Shown piece by piece: positions 2,392 to 43,340 of a stretch of DNA of 43,340 bases. The stretch is from contig NZ_LXIE01000021.1 of the NCBI RefSeq assembly GCF_001641085.1, positions 1 through 43,340 of the forward strand, given 5' to 3'. The notes under the pieces were generated by a model. That model was not told the origin of the DNA, searched no databases, and saw only the letters and a list, made by a program, of their open reading frames with translations. Each line of letters starts with the position of its first letter. Position 1 is the first letter of the stretch. This DNA comes from Aequorivita soesokkakensis (GTDB lineage Bacteria; Bacteroidota; Bacteroidia; Flavobacteriales; Flavobacteriaceae). The position numbers were made by a program, and so were the translations under genes.

Positions 2392-3210
2392 TTACTTTCC
2401 TTCTACAAATGCTTCCATTACGGCATCACTTACACCCATATTGGAAAATCCGCCATCGTTATATAAATTTTGAAGTGTAACCCTTTTGGTCAAATCACTA
2501 AACATAGCAACGGTATAGTTTGCACAATCTAAAGCGGTTGCATTACCTAATGGCGACATTTTATCAGCGTAACTAATAAAACCATCAAATCCTTTAACCC
2601 CTTGTCCGGCAGTGGTTGGTGTGGGCGATTGTGAAATAGTGTTTACGCGTACTTTTTTATCCCTTCCAAAGAAATACCCAAAACTGCGCGCAATACTCTC
2701 CAAATATGCCTTATTGTCTGCCATATCATTATAGTCAGGGAAGACGCGCTGTGCAGCCATATATGTGAGCGCAATAATGCTCCCCCATTCGTTCATAGCG
2801 TCTTTTTGATAAAGCACTTGCATTGTTTTATGAAAAGAGCCTGCGGAAACGTCCCAACCTTTATGGGTAAAGTCATAATTCTGACTTGTGTAATGGTTTC
2901 CTTTTCTAACATTGATTGACATCCCAATAGAGTGAAGCACGAAATCCAATTTGCCTCCTAAAATTTCTGTTGCTTTTTCCACCAAGTTTTCAAGATCTTC
3001 CATGCTTGTTGCATCGGCAGGAATAATTTCAGAATTGGTTTTTTCAGCAAGTTCCTTTATCTGCCCCATTCGCATGGCAATGGGCGCGTTGGTCAGCACA
3101 AACTTACCTCCTTCTTCGTGCACGCGTTCTGCTGTTTTCCATGCAATTGAATTTTCATCCAATGCTCCAAAAATGATTCCCCGTTTTCCTTTTAATAAAT
3201 TATACGACAT
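2392..3210 (-). CDS. fabI: Enoyl-[acyl-carrier-protein] reductase (NADH), FabI
   Basis: The 272-residue protein is a short-chain dehydrogenase of the FabI type. It reduces the trans-2-enoyl-ACP double bond in the last step of each fatty-acid elongation cycle in the cytoplasm. The N-terminus has the FabI cofactor-binding start (GKRGIIFGALDENSIAW). The catalytic pair is Tyr160 and Lys167 (Y-X6-K in YNDMADNK), with a second Tyr at 150, the same 10-residue spacing as in E. coli FabI. VLHSIGMS matches the family's substrate-side strand. It lies 72 bases downstream of recN and ends in a clear terminator, so it is probably the last gene of that leftward group. A TATCTTTA box about 60 bases before the start may give it its own promoter. 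Confidence 0.95.
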   Translation of the reverse strand: MSYNLLKGKRGIIFGALDENSIAWKTAERVHEEGGKFVLTNAPIAMRMGQIKELAEKTNSEIIPADATSMEDLENLVEKATEILGGKLDFVLHSIGMSINVRKGNHYTSQNYDFTHKGWDVSAGSFHKTMQVLYQKDAMNEWGSIIALTYMAAQRVFPDYNDMADNKAYLESIARSFGYFFGRDKKVRVNTISQSPTPTTAGQGVKGFDGFISYADKMSPLGNATALDCANYTVAMFSDLTKRVTLQNLYNDGGFSNMGVSDAVMEAFVEGK

Positions 3211-18019: not shown

Positions 18020-18224
18020 AATTTTGTGTTAATTACAAAAAGTTTTTTTGTAGTTTTATCGAAAGGGAAGTATGGGAAAAAAAAACTAAAAATTCAACCC
18101 TATTGTAGTTTTTTTTATAACTTTTTTGTTCACATATTTGCACTGTTAGGAAATAGCCCGGAAACACTCCATCCCCTATTTTTTGACCACACCTTTTAAA
18201 AAACAAAAAACACAACTTTTAACT

Positions 18225-19652
18225 ATGAGCAAAACTGCGGAATCGGTTTGGAACAATTGTTTGGCTTTTATCGAAGATAACATAACTTCGCAAGCATACA
18301 AAACTTGGTTCGAGCCCATTAAAGCGGTAAAGTTAACAGACAATGCTCTTAGTATTCAAGTTCCTAGCAAGTTTTTTTACGAATGGCTTGAGGAACACTA
18401 CGTTAAGATTCTAAAAGTTGCACTTACGAAGGAATTGGGCCAAACTGCCAAACTTGTTTACATCATAAAGATGGAAAATACATACGGCAACAAGCAACCT
18501 TTCACCGAAAAAATACCAAGTTCAAACCGAAGCAACCTGCAATCACAGGAAGTTGATGTGCCTTTGAAAAACAAAAGCCCGGAACTGAAAAATCCGTTTG
18601 TAATTCCTGGTATTCGCAACGTAAAAATTGAGTCGCAACTAAATCCCAATTATAATTTTGAAAGTTTTCTTGAAGGTGAATCAAATAGATTGGCACGTTC
18701 TGCAGGTTTAGCTGTGGCCAACAAACCCGGTGGAACTTCTTTCAACCCATTGCTTATTTTTGGCGGTGTCGGTTTGGGAAAAACACATTTGGGCCATGCT
18801 ATCGGAGTTGATATAAAAGATAAATACCCAGAAAAAACCGTGCTGTATATTTCCGCGGAAAAGTTTACGCAGCAATATATTGAATCGGTTAAAAAGAACA
18901 ATCGCAACGATTTTATTCACTTCTATCAAATTATTGATGTATTGATTGTTGATGACATTCAACTGCTTTCCGGAAAGGCTGGAACACAGGATGTTTTCTT
19001 CCATATTTTTAATCATTTACACCAAAATGGCAAGCAGGTTATTTTAACCAGTGACAAAGCACCGGTTGATATGATTGACATTGAACAACGATTGCTTTCC
19101 CGTTTCAAATGGGGACTTTCTGCAGAATTGAACCATCCTGATTACGACACCCGCGTTGCAATCATAAAAAACAAGCTGTACCGCGATGGCGTGGAAATGC
19201 CTGAGGATATAGTGGAATTTTTGGCAAACAACATCAAAACAAACATTCGCGAACTGGAAGGCGCCATTATATCATTGATCGCCCATTCCTCTTTTAACAA
19301 AAAGGAAATCACCATTGATCTTGCGCGCAAGATTGTTGACAATTATGTGAAACATACCAAACGTGAAGTTTCCATAGACTACATCCAAAAAGTGGTGAGT
19401 GATTATTTCCAGATGGATGTAGATACACTTCAATCAAAGACCCGTAAAAGGCACATCGTGCAGGCACGCCAATTAGCAATGTTTTTTGCTAAGAAATTCA
19501 CCAAAGCATCCCTTGCCTCCATCGGTTCACAAATTGGGCAACGCGATCACGCAACCGTACTTCACGCTTGCAAAACGGTTGACAATCTTTCAACTACCGA
19601 TAAGCAATTCCGCAAGTATGTGGAAGACCTTAACAAAAAGTTGACGCTTTAG
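18225..19652 (+). CDS. dnaA: Chromosomal replication initiator DnaA
   Basis: The 475-residue AAA+ initiator binds DnaA boxes and opens the origin. Domain I starts at ESVWNNCLAFIEDNI, so I use ATG 18225 rather than an in-frame ATG 42 bases upstream. Walker A is FGGVGLGKTH and Walker B is IDVLIVDDIQLL. The arginine-finger region reads LSRFKWGLSAE, and domain IV holds the DNA-binding signature IGQRDHATVLHACKTV. I found no cluster of TTATNCACA boxes in the 205 bases upstream, so the origin may lie elsewhere. CATATTTG (18133-18140) is a one-mismatch promoter box. Confidence 0.96.
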   Translation: MSKTAESVWNNCLAFIEDNITSQAYKTWFEPIKAVKLTDNALSIQVPSKFFYEWLEEHYVKILKVALTKELGQTAKLVYIIKMENTYGNKQPFTEKIPSSNRSNLQSQEVDVPLKNKSPELKNPFVIPGIRNVKIESQLNPNYNFESFLEGESNRLARSAGLAVANKPGGTSFNPLLIFGGVGLGKTHLGHAIGVDIKDKYPEKTVLYISAEKFTQQYIESVKKNNRNDFIHFYQIIDVLIVDDIQLLSGKAGTQDVFFHIFNHLHQNGKQVILTSDKAPVDMIDIEQRLLSRFKWGLSAELNHPDYDTRVAIIKNKLYRDGVEMPEDIVEFLANNIKTNIRELEGAIISLIAHSSFNKKEITIDLARKIVDNYVKHTKREVSIDYIQKVVSDYFQMDVDTLQSKTRKRHIVQARQLAMFFAKKFTKASLASIGSQIGQRDHATVLHACKTVDNLSTTDKQFRKYVEDLNKKLTL

Positions 19653-35362: not shown

Positions 35363-35713
35363 ATGGAAGCGTTAATAAAATTTGTACAAGACGAATTTGT
35401 AACAAAGAAAGAATTTCCTGAATTCGGAGCTGGTGATACTATTACAGTTTACTATGAAATCCGTGAAGGTGAAAAAACAAGAACCCAGTTCTTTAGAGGT
35501 GTTGTAATCCAAGTTAAAGGAACAGGTATTACCAAAACTTTTACAATTCGTAAAATGAGCGGTACAGTTGGTGTGGAACGTATCTTCCCACTTAACATGC
35601 CAGCCCTTCAAAAAATTGAGATCAACAAAAAAGGTAGCGTGCGTAGAGCTCGTATTTACTACTTTAGAGGTCTTACAGGTAAAAAAGCTCGTATCAAAGA
35701 AAAACGTATGTAG
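35363..35713 (+). CDS. rplS: Large-subunit ribosomal protein L19 (bL19)
   Basis: The 116-residue protein of the 50S subunit lies at the subunit interface. It has the family core FGAGDTITVYYEIREGEKTRTQFFRGVVIQ and the signature GVERIFPLNMPALQKIEINKKGSVRRARIYYFRGLTGKKARIKE. Length is normal. It has its own promoter and leader with a small predicted hairpin, and ends in a strong terminator, so here it is a single-gene unit separated from trmD by two unrelated genes. Confidence 0.97.
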   Translation: MEALIKFVQDEFVTKKEFPEFGAGDTITVYYEIREGEKTRTQFFRGVVIQVKGTGITKTFTIRKMSGTVGVERIFPLNMPALQKIEINKKGSVRRARIYYFRGLTGKKARIKEKRM

Positions 35714-35738
35714 TTTATTCTTTGTTGAAAACTATCAA

Positions 35739-35766
35739 AAGCCCTGTTTTTACAGGGCTTTTTTTA
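35739..35766 (+). terminator. Rho-independent terminator after rplS
   Basis: A 9-bp stem AAGCCCTGT (35739-35747) with ACAGGGCTT (35752-35760), 4-base loop, then a T-run to 35766. Confidence 0.92.
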
Positions 35767-35825
35767 TGAACAATTGTTCACAACGCTTGTTTGTAAACTG
35801 TGGATTTTTAAAGACTTACAAAATA

Positions 35826-35855
35826 TTGCATATCAAATTTTCCGTTCTATATTAG
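35826..35855 (+). promoter_or_regulatory. Promoter of the candidate structured RNA
   Basis: TTG (35826-35828), 19 bases, then TATATTAG (35848-35855), one base off TAnnTTTG. It points into a gene-free region, with predicted start near 35860. Confidence 0.45.
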
Positions 35856-35859
35856 CACT

Positions 35860-36008
35860 ATCAAAACGGCATAACAACCAAGATGATAAAATAAAGTAAC
35901 GTTCTTTTACACCATTTTTTCAAATCGCTTATGAAGCTAACGCTCGCAAGACGGTTAGCCTCTAAAAGTTTGAAAAAATAAAAAGAAAACACTTTACAGG
36001 CTTTTTTT
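35860..36008 (+). ncRNA. Candidate small RNA forming one long rod, 6S-like in shape
   Basis: Nested arms are GTAA (35896-35899) with TTAC (35994-35997), TTCTTTT (35902-35908) with AAAAGAA (35981-35987), 11 bp at 35914-35924 with 35969-35979, and GA+GCTAAC (35933-35941) with GTTAGC+TC (35954-35962). Between the 11-bp arm and the tip is an asymmetric open bubble (8 and 6 bases). A run of seven T follows at 36002-36008. One long stem with a central bubble and a ~150-base length is how 6S RNA, the RNA polymerase decoy, looks. I infer possible kinship with flavobacterial 6S RNA from shape alone. It could instead be an inverted-repeat element. Confidence 0.45.
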
Positions 36009-36041
36009 GATTGCTTGAGGTACTCACGATCTTTAGATTAT

Positions 36042-36262
36042 TAGTATTGAGATTGAAAAAAGTTTTTGGGTCAGTTTTTTGAAAATGGCATTAACCTCAC
36101 GGAAGATGCAAATTACAAAATTTTGAACCCGTGTAAGTAAGCAACGATCGCAAGGGTATAATAAACTTGCCCAGAATTCGCTCCGGTGAATTGGTCGGTA
36201 AAAGTTTACTTTACAAGGAGCCATATCACAATGTATTTATACAGTGATATGGCTTTTCTTGT
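36042..36262 (+). ncRNA. Candidate second small RNA: four consecutive hairpins ending in a strong terminator
   Basis: A weak box TAGTATTG (36042-36049) precedes about 200 bases without a convincing reading frame. Hairpins stand in a row: GCAAG/CTTGC (36150-36170), CC+AATTC/GAATT+GG (36171-36194), GTAAA/TTTAC (36198-36214) and a terminator (36220-36253). No tmRNA, RNase P, SRP or tRNA signature is present. The terminator needs a transcript, and none of the known genes reaches it. Confidence 0.4.
36220..36262 (+). terminator. Strong terminator with no annotated gene upstream
   Basis: A 10-bp perfect stem GCCATATCAC (36220-36229) with GTGATATGGC (36244-36253), extended inward by TGTA/TACA after a two-base bulge, then TTTTCTTGTTTT. 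Confidence 0.85.
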
Positions 36263-36283
36263 TTTAGATACTTTTCATTCGAT

Positions 36284-36390
36284 GAGTTGAGGGGTTGAGA
36301 AGTTTAGAGTTGAACTAATGACTTATTTTTTTAATTTCCCTCAACTCCTCAACCCCCTCAACTTTTAAACTCCTAAACTTATAAACTCCT
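36284..36390. repeat. Inverted array of degenerate 8-bp repeats upstream of icd
   Basis: The left arm (36284-36313) contains GAGTTGAGGGGTTGAG. The right arm (36338-36390) reads as tandem octamers TCAACTCC, TCAACCCC(C), TCAACTTT, TAAACTCC, TAAACTTA, TAAACTCC, complementary to the left. The spacer is 24 bases and AT-rich. It lies just before the icd promoter. Confidence 0.75.
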
Positions 36391-36420
36391 TTCAGAAGCT
36401 CTTCCAAATCGCTATATTTG
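36390..36420 (+). promoter_or_regulatory. icd promoter
   Basis: TTTC (36390-36393), 19 bases, then TATATTTG (36413-36420), a perfect TAnnTTTG. Leader of about 38 bases. Confidence 0.65.
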
Positions 36421-36430
36421 CATTCCTTAA

Positions 36431-38692
<2,262 letters not shown>

Positions 38693-43074: not shown

Positions 43075-43079
43075 AAAGG

Positions 43080-43185
43080 AAGGCGGCGACCTACTCTCCC
43101 ACGAGATGCAGTACCATCGGCGCAAACGGGCTTAACTTCTCTGTTCGGAAAGGTAAGAGGTGAGCCCCGTCGCTATAACCACCTT
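43080..43185 (-). rRNA. rrf: 5S ribosomal RNA
   Basis: On the minus strand the sequence runs from AAGGTGGTTATAGCGACGGG through the conserved CCGAACAGAGAAGTTAAGCC to GGGAGAGTAGGTCGCCGCCTT. The two ends pair as helix I. It is about 106 bases, short but usual for this group. It is the last gene of an rRNA operon whose 23S and 16S lie to the right, outside the window. Ends are placed by pairing and may be off by a few bases. Confidence 0.96.
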
Positions 43186-43340
43186 AGTTATCGGTATTAG
43201 GGATCAGGTTGTAGGGATTAGTCTGTACTAATCCAAGTTCCTAATCTACTAATGCCCCCCAGCATCCGCCGGGAAAATATCTTGACATAGGGAAACAAAC
43301 AATAGGGGAAAAGCTGAACCTTGCTTAAAAAAAGAGTTTG
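43186..43340 (-). other. 23S-5S internal transcribed spacer (partial)
   Basis: The 155 bases upstream of the 5S on its own strand show no tRNA and no recognisable 23S 3' end. There is a perfect 8-bp hairpin GGATTAGT / ACTAATCC (43215-43234). Toward the right edge the bases around TTTCCCTATGTCAAGATATTTT look like rRNA-operon antitermination or processing sequence. The 23S end must lie beyond the window. Confidence 0.65.

Follow-up and report, generated by a model that had tools for sequence, protein, structure and literature searches.

A putative large structured RNA gene downstream of rplS in Aequorivita and other Flavobacteriaceae

Downstream of rplS in Aequorivita soesokkakensis, we found a conserved and elaborately folded element (35861–36265, plus strand, ∼405 nt, with a 5′ end inferred from the promoter) that is very probably an independent structured RNA gene. 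The window, i.e., the whole stretch of DNA analyzed here, is the complete contig NZ_LXIE01000021.1 (43,340 nt). The element appears to be a large RNA with multiple domains, and the piece singled out in the initial annotation, which placed the RNA at 35860–36008, is its first third. Support for an RNA gene comes from the presence of its own conserved promoter, a conserved fold, and a conserved terminator, together with the lack of a conserved ORF. We infer that the gene is transcribed and that its product, a stable structured RNA, has a function in trans, and we lean, by a small measure, toward the fuller reading of an independent gene for a large, multi-domain noncoding RNA of ∼405 nt with a function in trans.

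The RNA lies between rplS (ribosomal protein L19, TIGR01024, 35363–35713) and icd, which encodes a monomeric NADP isocitrate dehydrogenase (TIGR00178, 36464–38692). The host rplS is 97% identical to rplS of Aequorivita aurantiaca and A. todarodis. A second RNA element of the rplS locus is the L19-Flavobacteria leader (Rfam RF03130, 35305–35332), but this leader spans just 29 positions, lies 5′ of rplS, and is separate from the new RNA. A 5S rRNA gene is found on the minus strand (43078–43186) close to the contig end, and in several draft congeners the contig breaks off ∼7 kb from the new RNA, for which an rRNA operon may be the reason.

The extent of the RNA was delineated from an alignment of 27 congeners and from its predicted fold. 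Inside the RNA, 219 of 404 columns are conserved at 90% or more as compared to 0 of 64 columns just downstream, and the mean majority base is 85 to 87% across the RNA and 50% in those 64 columns. Since the region upstream (the rplS terminator, the repeats, and the promoter) is equally well conserved, with a mean majority base of 82 to 92%, the border is sharp at the 3′ side only. The full-length RNA folds with a z score of −5.44 and none of 100 shuffles was as stable, so the span originally given is too short. No ORF of at least 12 codons is conserved on either strand, with no stop position common to more than 17 of the 27 sequences, and a small protein encoded inside the RNA was rejected on this basis.

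Covariation is located mainly in the 3′ half of the RNA. The 3′ branched domain (36132–36215, plus strand) consists of a closing helix and two hairpins, one of which carries a UAAUAA loop. In the alignment of 27 congeners (A2), double-sided changes affect 15 of its 29 pairs and 78 cells, as compared to 2 to 6 pairs and 2 to 13 cells in controls with slid partners. Across genera, a comparison of 15 sequences of the 3′ part, of which nine are from Aequorivita and the other six from elsewhere, showed 20 of 37 pairs to be compensatory versus 2 to 7 in the slid controls. The domain is followed by a terminator hairpin (36219–36265, plus strand) with the arms AGCCATATCAC and GTGATATGGCT and the T-tract TTTTCTTGTTTT, the sequence of which is conserved across the family. 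An alignment (A1) of 55 of the 57 hairpins identified, leaving out those of two further Aequorivita loci (L035 and L036), revealed that 98.9% of 540 cells in the stem are paired and that 6 of 10 pairs are compensatory (slid, 0–3). We also applied a phylogenetic null using a home-made script, not R-scape, in which substitutions from a Fitch reconstruction on a FastTree tree were moved to random columns. Significant consensus pairs numbered 4 of 132 in the 27 Aequorivita sequences, 7 of 145 in the Formosa/Flaviramulus group (15 loci), 5 of 126 in the Olleya/Lacinutrix/Winogradskyella group (8 loci), and 1 of 107 in the Maribacter/Cellulophaga group (7 loci), while slid partners gave 0 to 1.

The initial annotation took seven T residues (36002–36008) to be the 3′ end of the RNA. 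Instead, these residues belong to the 5′ strand of a hairpin with 22 pairs (36001–36062, plus strand), in which they pair with 36055–36061. In the 27 congeners, this hairpin is formed in 98.1% of 585 cells and is kept by compensatory changes, with 20 cells changed on both sides versus 0 to 3 with slid partners. Because the T run sits within a covarying hairpin, it is not a terminator, and what had been described is the first part of a longer RNA. A terminator scan likewise returned nothing at the T run; since the same scan misses the hairpin at 36219, this negative result weighs little. A fast-changing middle arm (36067–36131, plus strand), as predicted by the consensus fold, lies between this hairpin and the 3′ domain.

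The four nested pairing segments originally reported were recovered. They form a rod (35893–35995, plus strand) within the minimum-energy fold of 35855–36010 (−29.6 kcal/mol, z −3.11, an energy reached by 1 of 200 shuffles), including the asymmetric interior loop, and within the genus the rod is formed in 93.2% of cells. Its covariation in A2 amounts to double changes at 6 of 33 pairs and in 9 cells, values reached by 3 and 0 of 500 shuffles, respectively. However, slid controls gave 1 to 6 pairs and 1 to 8 cells and thus match the double changes of the rod, the covariation of which we therefore count as weak. Overall, covariation is strong in the 3′ domain and the terminator and weak in the rod itself. 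The rod was not seen in the other genera examined; there, this 5′ segment can adopt a short local hairpin. This segment contains the motif UAAAG-UAACGUU-CUUU(U) (35892–35908, plus strand), which takes the form AUAAAG-loop-CUUUAU in other genera. By eye, AACGTT is present in 31 of 39 loci that had been picked because their 5′ motif contains ACGTT. It should be noted that ACGTT is invariant in the alignment of these loci (A4) as a consequence of this selection and that some of its rows (L088, L100, and L109) look misplaced.

The promoter proposed in the initial annotation is present (35826–35855, plus strand) and consists of TTG at 35826–35828 and, after 19 nt, the −7 box TATATTAG at 35848–35855. 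The Bacteroidetes promoter consensus provides the background for this reading. All 27 Aequorivita loci have the −7 box, and in 23 of them TTG precedes it at a spacing of exactly 19 nt. Among the 57 loci of the family that bear the terminator hairpin, drawn from 80 named loci that are the best 80 of 581 rplS relatives, a TAnnTTwR box occurs in the expected stretch in 54 (shuffled mean, 26.0) and is preceded by TTG at 17 to 23 nt in 43 (shuffled mean, 4.5). Between the rplS terminator and the promoter are AT-rich, GTTnATAA-like repeats (35768–35815, plus strand) with a mean majority identity of 87% in the 27 congeners. Similar repeats, as judged by eye, occur in many other genera, and they are a possible regulatory region or regulator site of the RNA gene.

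The resemblance of these repeats to DnaA boxes and the presence of dnaA in the window (18183–19652) prompted a reading of the locus as oriC, which was dropped. There are no DnaA boxes with up to one mismatch within 35.7–36.3 kb, no GC-skew minimum coincides with the RNA in 400 kb of one congener, and the distance from dnaA to the RNA ranges from ∼17 kb to more than 1 Mb in five congeners, which counts against this reading. Within the window, GC skew is mostly negative up to ∼26 kb (mixed at 14–22 kb) and positive beyond. Based on this change and the presence of dnaA, a replication origin could be nearby.

To follow the RNA across genomes, we relied on its position and on a covariance model. 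Within the genus, the RNA is present in 27 of 28 Aequorivita genomes (the one studied here included), and the single miss is a genome that is 69% complete. Among the best 80 of 581 rplS loci, the terminator hairpin was found in 52 with a strict pattern and in 57 with a looser one; the looser finder starts 230 nt after rplS, so the strict pattern, which covered the whole stretch, was used for loci with short gaps. Downstream icd was found in 59 of these best 80 loci. The measured rplS-icd gap is at least 537 nt in 49 of the 59, and 48 of these 49 have the hairpin; the exception (L089) has a variant hairpin by eye, and at another locus (L091) the late start of the icd match makes the gap look longer than it is. 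In the remaining 10 of the 59, five of which are from Psychroflexus, the gap is at most 262 nt and the hairpin is found in none. Carriers include Marinirhabdus, Marixanthomonas, Maribacter, Cellulophaga, Formosa, Olleya, Winogradskyella, Lacinutrix, Kordia, Salegentibacter, and Galbibacter. The RNA was not found after rplS in, among others, Psychroflexus, Gillisia, Muriicola, Hyunsoonleella, and two of three Mesonia.

The covariance model (R1) covers 124 positions of the 3′ domain and terminator. When run against 81 loci outside its training set, which included loci expected to lack the RNA, R1 matched 47 on the rplS strand at E ≤0.01, with the best at 89.8 bits (L040). One carrier recognized by eye (L185) gave no match. 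Run against whole genomes at the same threshold, R1 matched 78 of 120 genomes of the family (77 of 119 genera), 75 of them in one place only and three (G018, G157, and G161) with a second, weak place. Many second matches are the same hairpin read on the opposite strand, and many hits under ∼45 bits rest on the near-palindromic hairpin and turn up on the opposite strand as well. A mobile or repeated element, for which many copies of the inverted repeat had been named as the sign, is ruled out by these single places and by the single place in the genome studied here. Of 30 loci fetched for the best R1 places, a set that includes the present genome and may include genomes behind the training loci, 29 contain rplS and 26 contain icd.

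Beyond the family, R1 matched 4 of 295 genomes in a class-wide sample at E 0.001. Two of these belong to the family; the two outside it (L224 and L226) have the same GCCATATCA stem by eye at loci without rplS. In six genomes of other families, with one locus incomplete, the RNA was seen in none. Within the family, none of 5 loci from the most sampled genus (g146) showed the RNA after rplS, and R1 matched none of them at E ≤1. Terminator patterns were less informative at the genome scale. A wide pattern matched 153 of 199 family genomes with chance matches included, and the distribution therefore rests on the model and on position, while a strict pattern matched 9 of 30 genomes of the family and 0 of 166 of other families but is too strict, as it missed a carrier (G180). 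Judging from the genomes searched, the RNA appears so far confined to Flavobacteriaceae and kept next to rplS.

A comparison with known RNAs bears on the identity first proposed, that of 6S RNA. Neither in the window nor at 20 related loci does the RNA match any Rfam family at gathering score; the matches that do pass at these loci are the L19 leader (19 of the 20 related loci) and the 5S rRNA of the window. It is highly improbable that the molecule is 6S RNA, or an additional 6S, that uses the central bubble of the rod (35893–35995) to bind RNA polymerase. The rod with its asymmetric interior loop in the minimum-energy fold fits such a role, and 6S-Flavo (RF01685) is likewise a Bacteroidetes RNA gene without coding function and with a rod-like arm. 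However, 6S-Flavo has 108 positions and is matched over its full length at another locus of the same genome (G000:C20:17316–17423, 104.4 bits, cut-off 85), no 6S family is among the 41 Rfam matches at E ≤10 in 35700–36470, and the rod, which lacks clear covariation, makes up a single arm of a longer RNA. Also ruled out at the locus were tmRNA and RNase P RNA, which have matches over their cut-offs elsewhere, at C50:178832–179230 and C1:203668–203998, respectively. The fallback of the initial annotation, a new structured RNA, is supported, albeit for a molecule that is larger and ends elsewhere at its 3′ side. A 2010 motif survey lists 6S-flavo and Flavo-1 for Bacteroidetes (PMC2864571), and neither reaches its gathering score at the locus. 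In a transcriptome study of Flavobacterium psychrophilum, a member of the same family, 85 new independent transcripts were described, with a median length of 176 bp for the Rfp RNAs, some of which are strongly folded and conserved (PMC9723704); these are unannotated independent transcripts, as proposed for the new RNA. In the open-license literature, we recognized no description of an RNA located 3′ of rplS in this group of bacteria. In length and elaborate fold, the new RNA resembles large orphan bacterial RNAs such as OLE, GOLLD, and ROOL, the roles of which are unclear or indirectly inferred, but it has no Rfam match at gathering score.

Three further readings accept an RNA at this place but differ in its extent or role. 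It is improbable that there are two RNAs, a short one to ∼36008 and a second with the 3′ domain: each half folds better than shuffles (z −3.11 and −4.93) and clear sharing between genera is limited to the 3′ part, but the T run belongs to a covarying hairpin and the scan, for the little it weighs, placed no terminator there. Similarly, a cis-regulatory leader of icd, with a start at 35861, the 36219 hairpin as an attenuator, and occasional read-through into icd, is quite unlikely. The two are on the same strand, and of the 57 loci with the hairpin, from the best 80 of 581, 48 have icd after rplS. Against this, no monomeric icd was found within 1.2 to 1.5 kb after the hairpin in 8 of the 57 (the stretch of a ninth is too short). 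The opposite strand carries the first ORF in L047 and L068, and a different ORF precedes in L054, L057, L070, L076, L102, and L104; in addition, a TATATTTG box lies ∼45 nt ahead of icd, and icd is often present where the RNA is not (10 loci). The RNA is not strictly tied to icd. At two loci (L062 and L064), a different isocitrate dehydrogenase, of the dimeric type by eye, follows rplS in place of the monomeric one. A base-pairing regulatory RNA with the 5′ loop ACGUUCUU as its seed, like many bacterial sRNAs, is unlikely, although the 5′ motif, where found, keeps ACGUU(CUU) beside a stem (in loci chosen for ACGTT). Typical sRNAs are far smaller and less structured than this RNA, and a word count of the complement of the loop in 400 kb of one congener gave nothing notable.

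Our preferred reading, a single large RNA acting in trans, would assign distinct roles to its parts. The RNA would probably be stable and act in complex with a protein, for which the branched domain at the 3′ side, along with the terminator hairpin and its conserved sequence, would form the binding and stabilizing core, while the fast-evolving middle may serve as a scaffold. The 5′ loop UAACGUU would then be the contact site for a second RNA copy or for target RNAs; its AACGUU is self-complementary and lies in a predicted loop, so that it could support a kissing dimer or act as a seed. More tentatively, the RNA could represent a new class of large RNA machine of Flavobacteriaceae, 300 to 600 nt in length, with self-pairing of the AACGUU loop, a family-specific protein on the 3′ domain and terminator hairpin, and a global role. 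Such a role, if true, would explain retention at one locus in most sampled genera.

To our knowledge, it is uncommon for a large structured RNA to be retained throughout a bacterial family. The jobs of RNase P, tmRNA, and 6S were found later and proved central. The locus described here is fixed and easily found, and it is present in most sampled genera of a family that is important in the sea. The RNA is absent from the locus in several lineages, so its function is testable by deletion and by comparison of carriers and non-carriers, and it would add a family missing from Rfam 15.

Two minor features of the 3′ region were also observed. At one locus (L077), R1 matches twice in a row (2704–2829 and 2981–3094) with sequence that is repeated by eye, possibly a tandem duplication of the 3′ part of the RNA. 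In the window, an imperfect inverted repeat (36264–36376, GAGTTGAGGGGTTGAG... / ...CTCAACTCCTCAACCCCCTCAAC) directly 3′ of the RNA attracts chance matches to miRNA families, and a stretch resembling it occurs in some congeners only (L012 and L013).
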